NCBI RefSeq assembly: GCF_026210795.1
Contig: NC_089453.1
Coordinates: 312,501 to 376,500, forward strand
Direction: 5' to 3'
Source of the DNA: Rhizophagus irregularis
Lineage: Eukaryota > Glomeromycota > Glomeromycetes > Glomerales > Glomeraceae
DNA: 64,000 nt
The notes beneath the pieces were generated by a model that worked only from the letters and a program-made list of their open reading frames with translations, searched no databases and was not told the DNA's origin. The position numbers and the translations under genes were made by a program. This document shows, in pieces, positions 1 to 41,617 of the stretch (its first letter is position 1; every line of letters starts with the position of its first letter).

Positions 1-742
1 TTGGATTCTAAATTTTCATCTTTATTTACATTTGGATATTTTTTTGAATATCTTCTAGGTGTTCAGATTGTTTAGAACACATAAAAAAATCAATTAATCT
101 TTTTACTTGCAAAATTAATAGTTCTGCTAGGATTAGCCCTTTTCCAATTATTAATTGTAAAGTATGCATTTTATATACTTGCCATTTGATTGAATTCATA
201 TTTGAAATAGTTTTTTTCATATTGGCAGTATATAAGGTTGCTTGCCGAAACCTGTTTGGCCTAATGCCGAAAGGTGAAACCTCTTATATAGTGCCGAAAC
301 GCCGAAACGCCGAAACTGCGAAACCTGTCAAAATTGCGAAACTGCCGAAACATGCCGAAACCTCTATAATAGGTTTCTCCGTAGCTTTCGGCATAGTCGA
401 TCATAAGATTTGCATATAGTTACGCCAAGTTACACCAATTAATAATATAATTTAGATGATCAAATAATCTACAGATAAAAGATTAAACTTCAATATTTTA
501 CCGTCGTCTTAGTTCTTTTAAGCTTTATCTAGTGTTAGAATTTTCATTTCTAACTCCCATATTAATATTATGATATTACACGTTTTTACAGTTTTTTTTT
601 AAGGGGCTTATATTCATTAAAGGAAAATGCGTAACATGCATTTAATAAACCCAATTCCGTCATCTCCTTTAACACCTGAACTAAAGTTTCTTTTACTTTC
701 TTCCGTTTTCTTAATAATAATATTAATAATAAACTGTTTCAA

Positions 743-3047
743 ATGACTGATCACATAGAAGATTCACCCATTAAAATGAAAAATAGAGGAGGTCGGCCAC
801 CTAATAGCATTTGGGAAGATATTAATAAAGGAGAAGCTGTTGGTTCTGGCAAATTTGCCGCCTCCTGCAAGTACTGTAAGAATACATGGTCACGCGGTGA
901 AGTTTCAAAGCTCGAAGAGCATCTTTCAAACCATTGTCCAGATGCGCCAGCAGCAGTTGTTAGAAGGTATATGACTAAAGTAATGGAACGGCAAGATGAT
1001 CCGAAGTCAGTCGTAAAAAAAGAAAATACTCTGAAGGTCAAAGTAACATGGATGATTACCGATGATTCAACAGAGCTTAACGAACAAAGATGTACACGAA
1101 TTAATCGTGCATTAGTTAAATTTTTTATTGCGTGCGGAATTGCGTTTAGAGTAGTGGAACATCCCTTTTTCATCAATTTTATAAAAGCAAGTCTTAATGC
1201 CGGGTACAATACACCAACAAGGGAAGTATTAGTAAATCAACTACTTGAACGTGAATTAGCTCAAGTGAACTTCAAAGTTAATTCTGAGCTTGAAAAGGAA
1301 ACGAATTTAACGTTAGGTTTGTTAAATTAAATAGGCTATCATACGTCATTTTTATTTAATCTTACTTACTATATAATATTAATTTATAATTTAGCCTTTG
1401 ATGGTTGGACGTCTGGTACACATCGTTCAATTTGGAACTTCATTGTAATGACTCCGTCGCGTAAAGAATATCTTTATCAACTTTCTGATTTGTCTGAAAA
1501 TTCGCACACTGCAGAATATCTAGTTACGGTAATTGAAAAGGTTATAGAAGGTATTGGAGAAGATCGAATATGTGCTGTAGTTTCCGATAATGCGGCCAAT
1601 GTTCGTAATGCACGAAAAATTATACATGAGAATCATCCAAAGATTGAGAATGTGCGATGCGTTGCACATTCTATCAATTTAATTGCATGCGACATCGTCA
1701 AGGAGAAGTTTGGGGAACGTTTATTAAAACGTGTTAATATTTTGACAACCTTTTTTAGAAGTTCTCATCAGGCTAATGCAAAACTTGCTCAAATAATTAA
1801 AGAAAAAGGAATTAGTGGAGGAGGATTAAAATTATATTGCAAGACACGCTGGACTACTGCTAGTGAATCCGTAAATTCAGTAATAAATTTGGAATCAGCA
1901 CTAGAAGAAATGGCCAGCGATCACGATAAAGTGCTAACAAATGATAAAATAAAACCGATTATTCAATCGAGAAATTTTTTTTCAAATTTACGAGTTCTTG
2001 GGTTTGTTCTGGATCCTCTAAGAAAAGCGGTACTTTCATTAGAATCGAGAAGAGCTACACTTGCAGATTGTTTCCTGAGCGGCGAAGACTTGCAGCTACA
2101 TTAAAAAAGTTACCCAAATCATTAAATCCTGCATTCCGAAGTCATTGTATCAAAGTAATAAATGAAAGATTTGATGAATTCGATGATGATAAGTATATTA
2201 CTTGTTTTTTTATGGATCCCAGATTTAGAAACGCGCCACTTAAAAAATGCGCCCTCATGAGAATTATCAAATGTGCAGCTTCAATCGGGAAAAATTTAGG
2301 TTTCGACCGTTACGAAGCTGAAACTTTATGTGATCAAATACAGAAATATATTAATGAGCAAGAGCCATTTGACCTAGATATCGGTTTTGCTAAAGATAAT
2401 CCCGTGAATTGGTGGAAATATATTAATACCGAACCAGAACCAGATGTCCTGCCAAGAATTGCAAGTTATCTATTTGCAATATGTCCTAACTCAGCAACTT
2501 GCGAACGTGGATTTTCGACTTTAGGATGGCTATTTCATAAACGTCGCTTAAATCTTAATGTGGATAAACTAGAATCCATGTGCAAATTAATTTTGTATTG
2601 GAAATCCAATTCAAAAACTGAACTTGGATTTTATGGAATTGATCAAAAAAAGAATACTGTCTTAGTGATGATGAGATCAATATACGTATTGCGGAAGCTT
2701 TTGCAGAAGATGACGATGAGGAATATAATGAGGAGCAAGCTTCTACTCAGAGATTAACTACAAGCGGCGAAACAATACCCGAAGACAATTGCCGTGTAGT
2801 AATCGAAAGTCTATGGATTGATCAATTTGTTAATTTATCGCATGATTCAATTACTAGTGAAATCGGCGATATTCCAAGAGATATATTGGATGATTCAGAT
2901 GAAAATAATGCGGAAGATGATGAAGTTGATGATAGTGGTAATAACAAGAGACCCGGAGAAGGTGACTATGATTATGATATAGATGATGTATTAGGTATGG
3001 ATGACGGTGATAATAATGACGATAATTATGATGATAATGAGGAATAA
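743..3047 (+). pseudogene. hAT transposase with BED zinc finger, two apparent frameshifts
   Basis: Exon 1 is 743-1316 and a 78-bp GT-AG intron spans 1317-1394. The splice joins phase-1 ends and restores the hAT signature LAFDGWTS, which carries the first catalytic Asp. An N-terminal BED-type zinc finger (CKYC ... EEHLSNHC) lies near residues 35-65. The second Asp is in SDNAANV (about 1585). The C-terminal hAT dimerisation region (about 2400-2620) includes CERGFS with the catalytic Glu. Reading must shift by one base near 2078-2085, between ADCFL and LAATLKKLP, and again in the A-run at 2645-2652. After the second shift an acidic Asp/Glu/Asn-rich tail runs to the stop at 3045-3047. The intact product would be about 740 residues. 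It would bind the element ends and catalyse cut-and-paste transposition in the nucleus. Both shifts could be mutations or assembly indels; the second is in a homopolymer. Confidence 0.9.
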
Positions 3048-3221
3048 TAATAATGAGAAATAATTACAATAGTTAATCCAATGAGAATTAATTCTAATAT
3101 CATGTGATTTAAATAATGATACTATTTAGGAAATAAATGATGTAATTATGCAGGGCAAAATATTCGCGATCAAAGTCCAGTTAACATATAATTATGCAGG
3201 CAATGCAGGCAATTGTAATTT

Positions 3222-3378
3222 TATATTATATTTTAAAACATTGCAATTTAATTAAGGAATAAGGATAAGCATATTATATTTTAAAAATAGTGCAATTTAA
3301 TTAAGGAATAAGGATAAGCATATTATATTTTAAAAATAGTGCAATTTAATTAAGGAATAAGGATAAGCATATTATATT
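3222..3378. repeat. 49-bp tandem repeat, about three copies
   Basis: A 49-bp unit containing gcaatttaattaaggaata and ending aaggataagc is repeated with boundaries near 3222, 3271 and 3320. It lies between the two transposon genes. Immediately downstream (about 3400-3500) a second, looser duplication of attaaatttattacattag occurs. No coding potential is seen. Confidence 0.85.
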
Positions 3379-3715
3379 AGAATCAATAAGTTTTAAGGAC
3401 TTCGTTAATTAAATTTATTACATTAGATCAATAAATTTTAAGAACTGCGTTACAAAAAAAATTTAGAACTGCGTTAATTAAATTTATTACATTAGAATCA
3501 AAACTGTGTTTATTTTGTTACAAATACTTTAATTATGTAGAATGTTATTATGTTCATCAGTTCATGTTTTAAACATTATAACGAATTTTAAAATTATTAT
3601 AAATATTATGAAATTTGAATTTTTTTTTCGCAATTCAAAACCAAATTGTATTTTAATTTTCAAATTGTATTTAATTTTCAAATTTCAAGTTACGAAAAAA
3701 TCATAAAAATAAAAA

Positions 3716-4388
3716 ATGGCAGCATTAGTACCTTTTGTCCCACCGCCACCACCAGTATTCCAATGGACGATTAACGCAGCTAGGCAATTAATCGCGGAGC
3801 GGAAACTTACATCGGCAATTCGAAAGAATTGCAAACCGTCATCATGTAAATGCATGGACAATAATAGCAAATAGGGTGTTCGTTGCAACGGGATTTGCAG
3901 CGACACCCAGGCAATGCCAAACAAAATGGAATGCCCTCAAACGAGGTTATGAAAACCTCAGTAGGATAATAAATAATAATGATGACGACATTCCTATTAT
4001 AAGCCCAAATAGTTTCGATAGAGCGTGTTTTGCTGATATGAACGATGAATTCTGGTTACAAACCGGTAATTATTATTAATTATTATTTTAAATTAATTTT
4101 ATTTAGGCAATTCATTCAATTCATTAATATTTTTATTGGATTTTAGATCTGTTTAGACGAGAGTATCGACGGCAGCATGCTGCGCATGATCGACGTCGAT
4201 ATGAATATAGATTGCGAAGGGAAAGAAGAAGGTCGCGATCTAGGTCTCGATCAAGAAGTAGATCAAGAAGTAGAGATAGAAGACGAGATAGAAGTAGAGA
4301 TAGAAGACGAGATAGAAGTAGAGATAGAAGACGGGACAGAAGTAGAGATAGAAGAAGAGGTAGAAGCAGGTCCCCACATAGAAGATAA
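3716..4388 (+). pseudogene. Transposon accessory protein: Myb/SANT-like domain plus RS-rich tail
   Basis: The ATG at 3716 opens MAALVPFVPPPPPVFQW, followed by a Trp-containing helix and an AERKL segment. A one-base shift near 3800-3830 is needed to continue into the frame with FERIANRHHVNAWTIIANRV and TPRQCQTKWNALKRGYENL. This W-(~x)-W spacing with QC..KW is typical of Myb/SANT-like DNA-binding domains. An intron at 4066-4146 (gtaatt...ttttag) joins FWLQT to DLFRREYRR. The second exon (4147-4388) encodes about 50 residues of alternating Arg-Ser and Arg-Asp dipeptides, like an SR-protein RS domain, ending at the stop 4386-4388. The product would be about 200 residues, nuclear and DNA-binding. 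Accessory Myb/SANT proteins are standard in PIF/Harbinger elements but not in hAT elements, so its place here is notable. The frameshift makes this copy doubtful as a functional gene. Confidence 0.75.
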
Positions 4389-4723
4389 AGATATTATTAA
4401 ATTTTAATTTTTATTATATTTTTAATCGTGTATTTTATTAGTTTAATATTAAATATTATAAAATAAATATTTACATACAAAAAATCATATTGTCTTTAAT
4501 CTTTATTCTTATAAATTGTTTAAATGCCGAAACTCTAATTAAATCATATAGAAAGTATTGCCGAAACGCCGAAACAGTTTCGGCAAGTTACGGCAGTTTC
4601 GCGATTTTGATAGGTTTCGCAGTTTCGGCATTTCTTGATGATTTCGCGAAACTAGTTTCGGCAGTTTCGCGTACGCCATTCTGCCGAAACCCTCTAGTTT
4701 CGGCAAGCAACCTTAGCAGTATA

Positions 4724-32990: not shown

Positions 32991-34934
32991 AATTCAATTT
33001 TATAATATTTTAATAATATGTAACCTAATTTAAAAGTTAATTTAAATAGATCAAAGTTATTATTATTTATTACAATAATAATTTTAATTAGATACAAATA
33101 AAGTATGTATTAGTTCAAACTGAATGTTATATAACAGATCAATAATTCTATAATAAATTAATTCAATAAATTAGAAGCATGAGTTAAATACAATAGGAAT
33201 CTAAAAAATTAATGATTGTAAGTCAAAACATTATGCTTTTAATACTCAAGAATCATAATTCATTAACCCAAAGTTGAGGATTAACCAGGTACCTTGCTTT
33301 AGATTCAGCGACACTGCCCAAGTTGGATGTGATGTCACAAGTACGCTTTAAGAAGACTCATTATGACTCTCTTGTAAAAAAGATAAGTATATTCGAAAAT
33401 ACCAAACATGAATTCACCTTAGAAGTTTAGCGGGAAACCTCTATAAACAACTGCAGTTTCATCATTACCAAAATCATTGAACTTAGGGATACAATGAAAA
33501 GTTCGTGAGAATGACGGCTTTAAAAAAAAATACAAATATATTCTCAACTTTGACAATGCACCTTATTCTTTGGCCTGGAATTCTCATATGACTAAATCAT
33601 TGTTGTTTGTAATTTGATCCATTGAATCCACCATAAATTACTAGGTAAAGCGAACTTTTATTAGACAACCATAGCTTCATCAACAAACATTGCAATGTGT
33701 TTGGACGAATGACAACCTGTTTAATAAGTTTTAAATGGGCAAACGTGGTTCTAAAACCCATTACAAGGTAGGCTGCAAGAAGTGCAAAGCAACCTACCTA
33801 ACTCACGAATGGGTCTAAGGGTTAGGGAATCAATTATACACCAAACACACATAAGTTGGTATGGAGTTAAAGTCTTACAAACTAAAAATTATTTTTGCCA
33901 CTTAATTCTCCAATAATCAATGTTATAAAAAAGTTACTTACGACTTAAGCCTACTTAATTATATATAAAATGACACTTCGAACAGACAGAGCTCATGATA
34001 TATGAGAATATCCCATCATGTCTATTTTAACCTTTGATTAAAGGATTTTCATTGCATTATCAAACTGATTATATAAGTTTTACGCCTATATAACATAAGC
34101 TTATACTTATATAATCAATCAAACAAGTCTGCCTTTTTCTATAACACACTATGTACGACGGCAAATAGTATAGAAGGTAGACTCTACTTTTCAGAAAGAA
34201 AGTTTTTTTTTTAAAAAAAAAAAATGTACAAAATAAATAGTCTTAAATAAAATAATGGTTAAATTGACTTTTTAGAAATTAATAGGCCTTATAGCCTTTA
34301 TAATATACGCGATTATTTAATATACGTGATTATTTAATCAGACAATTTATTAAATTTGGTATTACACGAACTTGATCAACCTGGTCTCTTTATAGGTGTA
34401 TATTTCTTAAATTATCACCTGAACTTTTCAATTTTTTGCAGAATCGAAAATGGAAACCGGAAAAGTATTCTGATTCAGAATCTTTTTTTTAAGAAATGTG
34501 TTTGTTATTTTGTAAATTACCAGTCAGAATTGGCTTAAACTTTAAAGTTCTTACTTTACGCAAATATTACGCAAATGTATTTTTTTGATCTGTATAAGAA
34601 CGTCAAATATAATAACCATTCCATTTTTAACAAAATAACAATTACTTTTTAAACTTGAAAATGTTATATTTTAGACAAACATTTTATTCCATTTTATTTT
34701 ATATTATTATCACTTGACATTATGGTATAATGTTTAGAATAATCATAATGTTTCATATTATCATTTACTTGTAAAAATTTACTAAATTTATTCAATGTAA
34801 TATTGTTATAAAATGCATAATTTTATAAAAAAATTAGAGCGTTTGCTAAGATTTATAATTATATATAATTTAATATTATTATTAATAACTATAATTAAAG
34901 GATATGAAGTATCAGTATAAATAAAATAACTTAC
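32991..34934. other. Intergenic DNA, nothing recognised
   Basis: Slightly more GC-rich patches at 33280-33480 and 33720-33850 have no convincing ORF. A 27-codon ORF at 33735-33818 (MGKRGSKTHYKVGCKKCKA) is too short and isolated to call. Confidence 0.5.
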
Positions 34935-35830
34935 CAATAAAGAATCGATGATCTTATTTCCGCTCCTAGAAGGTATCATTAATTCTTTGGTTATATTATC
35001 TAATTCTTTAACGACAGACAAATTTTTTCTGTTTCATAAAACCCTAAAGGTTTCTCTTACAAAATTAACCAAGATATTGAACCTTTTATTTCTTGTTAAT
35101 TCTGAAATATTAACAGCTACAAGCTGTCAGCTTAGAATCTTTTGGACAAATTCTTCATCAACGTAATCTATAAGTTCCTTTTGAGATAAACTTCCAGTAG
35201 ATGCTTTATAATTAAATTAATAATTAATACAAACAGTACTATTTGGTTAGTTACGAAACAATTAAATAAATACCTATTTTTTCGTATTTCTTTAAATTCT
35301 TCTACAGAGGTTAAAATAATTTGATAAACTTGTTTCTGAAATCTATAAAAAATTTTCAGGTTTTTTTGAGGTAGCTTTTAGCTTCGTTTGAATGTATTTT
35401 AATTTTGAAAATTTTTGTTATCAACTCATCAAAAACTTCACCACGTGGACTTCTTGCACGTAAAAAAAGACACTTGACACTTTCGTTCTATAGACGAATT
35501 TTATCCTAAAATATTAAAAATACATTATTTAAAAGATTTAGACATAATAAATATTATCATATTAATTTAATACTTACGTCTGTAATTTTACTAGATGATA
35601 AGATAGCAACATCCGTTTTGTTCATTTCTAGTGCCAATCTTAAAATTTCTGGATGGTCGACAATTTTAACTTATAAGAGAGAAAAAAATTATGTTTAATA
35701 AAAAAAAACTAAAAAAAATGAACATTTCTATATGATTTTACCAATTTAGTACAGTGAGCATTGAAGTTCCAGTCTGAATTCCAAGTTCCTAAGAAAAAAG
35801 TAAAAGGAATATTAGTATGATAATATTCCT
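34935..35830 (-). pseudogene. Decayed intron-containing gene, family unknown
   Basis: Minus-strand blocks look like exons separated by short introns: TWNSDWNFNAHCTKL (about 35800-35745), VKIVDHPEILRLALEMNKTD with SSSKITD and a gtaagt donor (about 35670-35580), CLFLRARSPRGEVFDELIT after an in-frame TAG (about 35510-35400), FYRFQKQVYQIILTSVEEF (about 35345-35285), and STGSLSQKELIDYVDEEFV with stops into VVKELDNITKELMIPSRSG and a gtaagt donor (about 35200-34937). At least three stops fall inside blocks. I could not assign a family. Confidence 0.5.
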
Positions 35831-40208: not shown

Positions 40209-41617
40209 ATGACTACCAAATTTCATAAGACACAAAATATGATTGTAACTATCGAAGATAAGACTTTGCAAAAAAATCCTCCTAAAGATAGAAGGGGCTC
40301 AGCGAGCAAAAAAGTGTCTATTAGAGATAATAACCCTAATAAAGAAAATGTTACTAAAGAAAATGTTACTAATAAGGGTAATAAAAATAAAAAGGACGAA
40401 AAGAAAGAAGAAGTCGCTATGGTTAATTCGCAAAGACATGTTGTTGATATCGAAGATGAACCTTTATTAAAACCAAATCCTAGAAGATTCGTTTTATTCC
40501 CTATACAGTTTCATGAGGTACGTATTTATTATTTATGAATCAAAATCTTGCTATCTTGCTATTGAGATGAGGTGCGCAAAATTGTAACCGTAATCATCAA
40601 ATATTGTGTAGATCTGGCAAATGTACAAAAAGGCCGAAGCTTCATTTTGGACTGTTGAGGAAGTTGACCTTTCCAAGGATATGAATGATTGGGAGTATAA
40701 ACTTAACGATGAAGAAAAATTCTTTATTTCTCACGTTTTGGCCTTCTTTGCCGCCTCGGATGGTATTGTCAATGAAAATTTAGTGGAACGTTTTAGTAAT
40801 GAAGTCCAAATTCCAGAAGCAAGATGTTTTTATGGATTTCAGATCATGATCGAAAATATCCATTCAGAAATGTACTCCCTCTTGATTGATTCTTATATCA
40901 AGGAGCCATCTCAAAGAGAATACCTATTCGATGCCATTGAGAATAGTAAGTGTTGTTTGTTGAGATTTTTAAAAATTTATAGTTTGTCTGACTAATTATT
41001 CAATCAATCTTTTTTTGTTTATAGTCCCTTGCATTCGAAAAAAAGCGGATTGGGCTCTTCGATGGATTTCCGATAAGGAATCTTCATTTGCTGAACGTCT
41101 TGTAGCGTTTGCCGCTGTTGAAGGAATATTCTTTTCTGGAGCTTTCGCGTCAATCTTTTGGTTAAAGAAAAGAGGAATGATGCCAGGATTAACTTTTTCC
41201 AACGAACTAATTTCTCGAGATGAAGGATTGCATTGTGATTTTGCATGTCTCTTATTCACTCATCTTCGTGCACGACCTCCAACAAAAACTGTAGAAGCTA
41301 TTATAGCGGAAGCGGTTACAATAGAACAAGAATTTTTAACAGAAGCATTACCAGTTAATTTAATTGGTATGAACGCGAATTTAATGAAAAAATATATTGA
41401 ATTTGTAGCTGATAGATTATTAGTGGCACTTGGTGGAGCAAAATTGTATAATTCAGAGAATCCTTTTGATTTTATGGATTTAATTAGTTTACAAGGTAAA
41501 ACAAATTTCTTTGAAAAACGCGTATCAGATTATCAAAAAGCTGGAGTTATGAGTAACAGAGCATCTGTCGGATGTAATCCCGCCGATAATATTTTTACTC
41601 TTGACGCTGATTTCTAG
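40209..41617 (+). CDS. RNR2: Ribonucleotide reductase small subunit R2 (411 aa, 3 exons)
   Basis: Exons are 40209-40517, 40612-40945 and 41025-41617, with GT-AG junctions and matching phases, giving 411 residues. The protein forms the R2 half of class I ribonucleotide reductase, which makes dNTPs in the cytosol. Residues 1-75 are a Lys/Asn-rich variable N-terminus. The core starts at [20 protein letters not shown] and [19 protein letters not shown]. Di-iron ligands by motif are Asp153 ([10 protein letters not shown]), Glu184 and His187 (ENIHSEMY), Glu247 (VEGIFFSG), and Glu281 and His284 (RDEGLHC). The radical tyrosine is Tyr191. The C-terminus NIFTLDADF is the conserved tail that docks on the large subunit. 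Nothing is missing, so it should be an active R2 rather than an Rnr4-like inactive paralogue. Confidence 0.98.

Follow-up and report, generated by a model that had tools for sequence, protein, structure and literature searches.

A hAT transposon lineage of Rhizophagus irregularis with a second gene encoding a Myb/SANT-like protein with an Arg-Ser tail

Introduction

Canonical members of the hAT superfamily carry one gene, and to our knowledge their transposases are usually regarded as self-sufficient; PIF/Harbinger elements, which leave target duplications of 3 bp, pair the transposase with a Myb/SANT-like protein. Here we describe an element of 4483 bp, at positions 233-4715 of a 64,000-nucleotide stretch of Rhizophagus irregularis DNA (assembly GCF_026210795.1, contig NC_089453.1, positions 312,501 to 376,500 of the forward strand; this whole stretch is called the window below), that has the perfect 19-bp inverted ends, the 8-bp target duplication (GCAGTATA) and the transposase of a hAT, together with a second gene, gene 2, downstream on the same strand. 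We think it reasonably probable that this is a two-gene hAT, in which gene 2 supplies an accessory DNA-binding partner that assists transposition, as in PIF/Harbinger. The two genes are physically linked, there are copies in which both are intact, the SANT part of gene 2 shows selection between subfamilies, and gene 2 is tied to one hAT lineage. Comparison of the copies gives good support to gene 2 being a functional part of the element; its role as an accessory partner we infer by analogy.

The closest described systems are of two kinds. The Harbinger Myb-like protein is reported to interact with its transposase, to bind the terminal inverted repeats and to permit joint nuclear import (PMC9179366), and Nuwa is described as a two-gene transposon with a 3-bp target duplication (PMC12730594). 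Our element resembles both in coupling a transposase to a Myb/SANT-like protein (Myb_DNA-bind_4 at 37.7 bits against a Pfam cut-off of 27), a likeness that bears on function only, and differs from them in that its transposase and its duplication, of 8 bp and not the 3 bp of the Harbinger type, are those of a hAT, and in its Arg-Ser (RS) tail; the Myb/SANT gene was likely gained separately from Harbinger. With the hAT superfamily (Ac, hobo, Tam3, Hermes; DUF659-type) it shares the 8-bp duplications, the short terminal inverted repeats (19 bp, perfect in the window copy) and the DUF659 and hAT dimerisation domains, and differs in the second Myb/SANT-RS gene, which is kept between subfamilies. 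A fungal hAT with a second gene has been described before, in the form of the TET+ hAT7 elements of rust fungi, which carry a TET/JBP dioxygenase gene, and TET/JBP accessory genes are said there to occur in several DNA transposon superfamilies of other fungi (PMC12730594). The hAT7 elements have 7-bp duplications, and a Myb/SANT gene is not mentioned for them in the passages of that paper devoted to them (PMC12730594), whereas the present element has 8-bp duplications and neither of its proteins gives a Pfam match to a TET/JBP domain. The main text of a paper on R. irregularis transposable elements names hAT families and contains no Myb or SANT (PMC11075540), and among the papers listed by our searches of the open-access literature of PubMed Central, a scope outside which subscription papers and Repbase reports lie, we recognised no hAT with a Myb/SANT gene. 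A Myb/SANT-RS second gene is a departure from the usual hAT make-up.

A hAT lineage that keeps such a partner would be a parallel, probably an independent one, to the two-protein system of Harbinger. It opens a test of whether Myb/SANT partners solve a general problem, be it target recognition, nuclear entry or silencing, and of whether RS domains can serve transposition.

Results

A young family with both genes intact in some copies

In the search for family copies, which covered the 146.7-Mb assembly (32 contigs), 33 of 269 candidates were scored, with 102 matches, and family size rests on those scored; 25 of these places match the full query at 97-100% identity. Both ends were found by script in 27 of the 33 loci fetched for comparison. 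The 8-bp duplications of these 27 are identical at 18 loci, differ by one mismatch at one and do not match at eight, and each of the 18 identical pairs has a different sequence. Genome-wide, the exact 19-mer end (TAAGGTTGCTTGCCGAAAC) occurs 667 times and its backwards-read control pattern 0 times. The near-full-length alignment holds 26 copies, seven loci (L036 and L038-L043) having been left out because they were truncated or interrupted or had their ends displaced.

Three of the 26 aligned copies (L012, L018 and L027) keep the two genes intact. L012 and L027 lie on separate contigs within different target duplications, yet no substitution separates them, only a single 49-bp length difference located between the two genes, and L012 is the nearest relative of each of the other 24 aligned copies. 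Judged from these alignments, the young family arose in a star-like burst whose source element had two intact genes, and the lineage is a recently mobile one. With intact copies that sit at different places and differ by no substitution, the system is recent enough to be studied by experiment.

A miniature inverted-repeat transposable element (MITE) of 244 bp, with the ends of this family and 8-bp duplications, is nested in locus L038, a copy of the parent element, at 344-587 (C13:2511485-2511728), and L039, a second such copy, has a matching insert. From 1184 candidate places of this MITE 40 were scored, and those 40 match at 98-100% over the full length.

Structure of the two genes

In the 26 aligned copies the transposase gene consists of two exons encoding 740 amino acids, with an unbroken frame in seven. 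The transposase of an intact copy matches DUF659 (87.9 bits, cut-off 34.7, E 7e-25) and the hAT dimerisation domain PF05699 (23.7 bits, cut-off 21.4), and its match to the BED zinc finger falls below the cut-off (17.8 against 20.6 bits). Pfam finds no Harbinger-type transposase domain, its matches being only DUF659, the hAT domain and the weak BED finger. Read by eye, the motifs FDGWTS, SDNAAN and CERGFS are candidates for the catalytic D-D-E motifs of an RNase H fold.

Gene 2 likewise has two exons, and encodes 197 amino acids; a transcript that kept its intron would encode only the SANT part, in 122 amino acids. The closest solved relative of its product is the trihelix factor GT-1, a weak match (E 0.05); the protein belongs to the same domain family as the Myb_DNA-bind_4 or GT-1-like trihelix factors, and differs from them in being transposon-borne and in its spliced Arg-Ser/Arg-Asp tail. 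The SANT part is unbroken in 17 of the 26 copies and the gene is intact with its tail in nine, seven of which encode 197 amino acids, one 195 (stopping two residues early) and one 188 (with in-frame losses).

An earlier note on this DNA had claimed perfect 19-bp ends and an 8-bp duplication, and both are seen at the positions given in Table 1. Of the other hAT hallmarks that it named, the BED finger scores below threshold and the D-D-E motifs are candidates. Its spliced Myb/SANT and RS-tail gene, downstream on the same strand, is a good description of the sister copies and not of the window copy, in which frame-breaking indels interrupt both genes.

Linkage of gene 2 to one transposase lineage

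A 421-bp transposase probe was scored at 40 of 84 candidate places, and the gene 2 positions set against them were the rows among the gene 2 matches listed. Gene 2 lies downstream, on the same strand, of 39 of these 40 places (35 within 2 kb, 4 at 2.5-5 kb), the remaining one being a transposase fragment at C31:1314648 with no listed gene 2 nearby. The earlier note had taken intact pairs of genes in other copies as the sign of a two-protein lineage, which the three intact pairs and the 39 fragments with gene 2 downstream support, and had foreseen two ways in which the idea might fail, through full-length copies lacking gene 2 or through gene 2 being an unrelated insert; with one fragment in 40 lacking a listed gene 2 and the rest in constant downstream linkage, neither was borne out.

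The linkage also bears on two other explanations. It is highly improbable, in our judgement, that gene 2 is part of an unrelated element nested in the hAT, as SANT genes of other repeats in this genome might suggest: besides the constant position and strand of gene 2, none of the 26 aligned copies has an empty site at the gene 2 position, and the L045 repeat, which also bears gene 2, can be aligned to the hAT up to and including the right end of the latter and is therefore a hAT remnant. Gene 2 might instead be a passenger, a host or repeat gene captured without function. Related Myb/SANT genes elsewhere (in the L047 repeat and at the near single-copy locus L062) make capture plausible, and the changes in gene 2 look neutral within the young family; the presence of gene 2 beside 39 of 40 transposase fragments argues against it, as do the nonsynonymous deficit between subfamilies and the gene order kept by a diverged fossil, both described below, and we consider it improbable.

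As a control, 150 of 434 DUF659 candidates were scored and set against Myb/SANT places (150 of 246) plus further listed gene 2 places. Of the 150 scored DUF659 places, 50 are followed on their own strand by gene 2 at a distance of up to 8 kb, two of them sharing one partner, and all of the partners are listed gene 2 places; 95 have no listed SANT gene that close, and five have one in another position or orientation. A family probe match (from the probe search of 40 out of 84) lies just downstream at 34 of these 50 places and at one of the other 100, that single member being the C31 copy that lacks gene 2. Some of these 100 places could still be family members. On this evidence, gene 2 appears to be the mark of one hAT lineage, and not of hATs genome-wide.

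Selection on gene 2 between subfamilies

We counted nonsynonymous and synonymous changes (N/S) on internal branches, which represent source lineages, and on terminal branches, which represent mostly post-insertion decay, and compared them by Fisher test. The gene 2 tree holds 42 copies from several subfamilies; L037 was excluded because of misalignment and L063 because of its divergence, and L062, which has no DNA match to gene 2, is outside the counts. For the SANT part, N/S is 19/33 on internal and 107/51 on terminal branches (p = 1.4e-4); for the whole coding sequence it is 36/44 and 222/80 (p = 3.4e-6); and for the RS tail 17/11 and 115/29, a marginal difference (p = 0.048). The nonsynonymous deficit is absent when the SANT columns are read in two shifted frames (internal 41/9 and 39/11). 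With the five captured copies removed, p is 1.2e-4 for the coding sequence and 8.4e-4 for the SANT part, and with CpG transitions masked 2.9e-4 and 6.5e-4. In a single comparison, of the older copy L046 with L027, pN/pS is 0.29 for gene 2 and 0.49 for the transposase. Selection on gene 2, which the earlier note had put forward for testing, is purifying on the SANT part between subfamilies. By these counts the SANT part is constrained, and constraint on the RS tail is only suggestive, its evidence being weaker than that for the SANT part.

Age of the pairing and other carriers of SANT genes

At C23:2503900-2508600 a decayed transposase lies upstream of a decayed SANT gene on the same strand. 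The transposase is 31-36% identical to ours over 57 and 85 amino acids (E 3e-6 and 2e-9), and the SANT gene 53% identical over 86 amino acids (E 4e-29) and 47% over 32. By chance, a DUF659 sequence in the matching orientation would be expected in the 2.5 kb upstream of about 0.4% of loci (434 candidates in 146.7 Mb; the density may be higher). This single fossil supports, and does not prove, an old pairing of transposase and SANT gene.

A repeat longer than 5.3 kb carries gene 2 at seven places, among them L045, L050-L053 and L064 (for example C17:3086564-3091900 and C6:1408643-1413592). None of the seven has a stop in exon 1 of gene 2; the right end of the hAT is reached by six of their alignments, and the seventh stops short (none was found in L064); and tblastn gave no transposase match in L045 and L064, the two that were read. 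According to these alignments, the right part of the hAT was captured by this repeat.

Such copies bear on a further explanation, that gene 2 works against the host and has no part in the transposition reaction, its Myb/SANT-RS product lifting silencing or directing how element transcripts are spliced and expressed. The selection on gene 2 fits any benefit to the element, and the seven-copy repeat keeps the gene, with its exon 1 open, and has no transposase match in the two copies read. In addition, 244 of the 674 departures from the most frequent base among copies L011-L037 are CpG to TpG/CpA changes, in an element with only 155 CpG sites; this suggests that the copies are cytosine-methylated, in which case anti-silencing would pay. 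Against such a role, the seven copies are perhaps passive duplicates of a recent capture. We regard such a role as possible and rather unlikely.

Among the matches listed there are also many more distant SANT genes, with an identity of about 38%. The one examined, L047, lies inside a repeat longer than 6.4 kb, in which the open reading frames (ORFs) searched contain no Pfam-recognised transposase. Together, L047 and L065 (C31:1223600-1233500) represent a large multi-copy element with a distant SANT gene that is probably spliced. A Plavaka identity for it, guessed from a neighbouring protein, was rejected: the ORFs searched gave nothing above the Pfam cut-off, and none of the 123 listed Plavaka (PF18759) places (123 scored of 180 candidates) is this locus. 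The element stays unclassified. Within the window, positions 33336-34381 and 34861-35654 match parts of it at 92% and 69%. L067, whose low score had suggested a distant relative, turned out to be a family copy at 97% with a frameshifted gene 2.

A near single-copy SANT gene at L062 (C13:1701850-1702700) has a tail rich in Arg, Ser, Pro and His and is 35% identical to gene 2 over 98 amino acids of the SANT part; it may be a host gene, and is a candidate for the origin of the cassette discussed next. Both in L062 and in the fossil L063, the SANT frame and a likely intron are followed by an Arg-rich linker and then by an Arg-Ser-rich or Arg-Ser-Pro-rich stretch. The SANT-RS gene may be a movable cassette, like the TET/JBP genes in DNA transposons of other fungi (PMC12730594). 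We advance only tentatively, as a doubtful extension, the idea that such a cassette has spread among unrelated repeats (the hAT lineage, the large unclassified element and the seven-copy repeat) and helps each of them to move or to escape silencing by way of RS-domain nuclear bodies, which would make it a new kind of accessory protein gained independently of Harbinger. Relatives outside the source genome were not confirmed in the viral, bacterial and archaeal collections, a result that says nothing about other fungi.

Discussion

Overall, we favour the two-gene hAT with an accessory partner, for which the following course of events can be proposed. Gene 1 would provide a cut-and-paste transposase and gene 2 a spliced accessory protein, composed of a trihelix Myb/SANT-like domain and a basic tail rich in Arg-Ser and Arg-Asp. 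The SANT domain would bind element DNA, either its ends or the subterminal GCCGAAAC arrays, or the chromatin there, and the RS tail may direct the protein together with the transposase to RS-domain compartments of the nucleus, or aid nuclear import. Once there, the gene 2 protein would assist synapsis, excision or expression of the element, like the Myb-like protein of PIF/Harbinger. The two terminal 200-bp stretches contain GCCGAAAC 10 times in direct and 4 times in inverted orientation, and the interior 0 times. It is equally possible that the transposase itself binds these arrays; in Ac, the transposase binds terminal arrays.

At the same time, several of our results weigh against this reading. 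The binding, interactions and expression of the gene 2 protein are all predictions. The MITE that shares these ends, with 1184 candidate places of which 40 were scored, shows that mobilisation needs no gene 2 in cis. The RS-tail signal disappears when the captured copies are left out (p = 0.20) or CpG transitions are masked (p = 0.32). Within the young family, taken as a set of 26 rows that includes one older copy, there is no contrast between internal and terminal branches either in gene 2 (13/8 and 68/38, p = 1) or in the transposase (33/13 and 180/88, p = 0.61), and the selection signal therefore rests on the older subfamilies; a null contrast of this kind is expected for a young burst of decaying copies and is not by itself evidence of selection. 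In a 30-row whole-element alignment the contrast for gene 2 was even reversed (91/16 on internal branches), an objection that was removed when it was traced to L040, which is misaligned, with gene 2 columns only 62.9% identical; without L040 the counts are 16/10 and 88/44 (p = 0.65).

The tail raises a further difficulty. Six of the 26 aligned copies (L014, L022, L023, L028, L029 and L033) have the same 2-bp deletion in it, five of them also share a change at 4247, and in the four whose SANT part is unbroken the protein stops at 147-154 amino acids; four other copies have a 24-bp in-frame loss in common. Either tail-less copies may be able to spread, perhaps helped in trans, or the 2-bp deletion may recur.

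Features of the element and of the window

Table 1. Features of the window copy (window coordinates).
Feature	Position	Strand	Basis
Left target site duplication copy, GCAGTATA	225..232	.	sequence comparison
Left terminal inverted repeat, 19 bp, TAAGGTTGCTTGCCGAAAC	233..251	+	sequence comparison
Left subterminal CGAAAC array (8 in first 200 bp, 6 of them GCCGAAAC)	246..361	+	motif count
Transposase exon 1 (BED finger below threshold, first part of DUF659)	743..1316	+	alignment, Pfam; frame broken in window copy
Transposase intron, GT..AG in 26/26 copies	1317..1394	+	alignment (predicted)
Transposase exon 2 (DUF659, hAT dimerisation domain, acidic C-terminus)	1395..3047	+	alignment, Pfam; frame broken in window copy
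Gene 2 exon 1 (proline-rich start, Myb/SANT-like (trihelix) domain)	3716..4065	+	alignment, Pfam; frame broken in window copy
Gene 2 intron, GT..AG in 26/26 copies	4066..4146	+	alignment (predicted)
Gene 2 exon 2 (basic linker, Arg-Ser / Arg-Asp repeat tail)	4147..4388	+	alignment
Right subterminal CGAAAC array, both orientations (5 direct, 7 inverted in last 200 bp)	4528..4702	.	motif count
Right terminal inverted repeat, 19 bp, inverted TAAGGTTGCTTGCCGAAAC	4697..4715	-	sequence comparison
Right target site duplication copy, GCAGTATA	4716..4723	.	sequence comparison

Elsewhere in the window, the ORFs at 40621-41617 resemble a ribonucleotide reductase small subunit, for which they are candidates.

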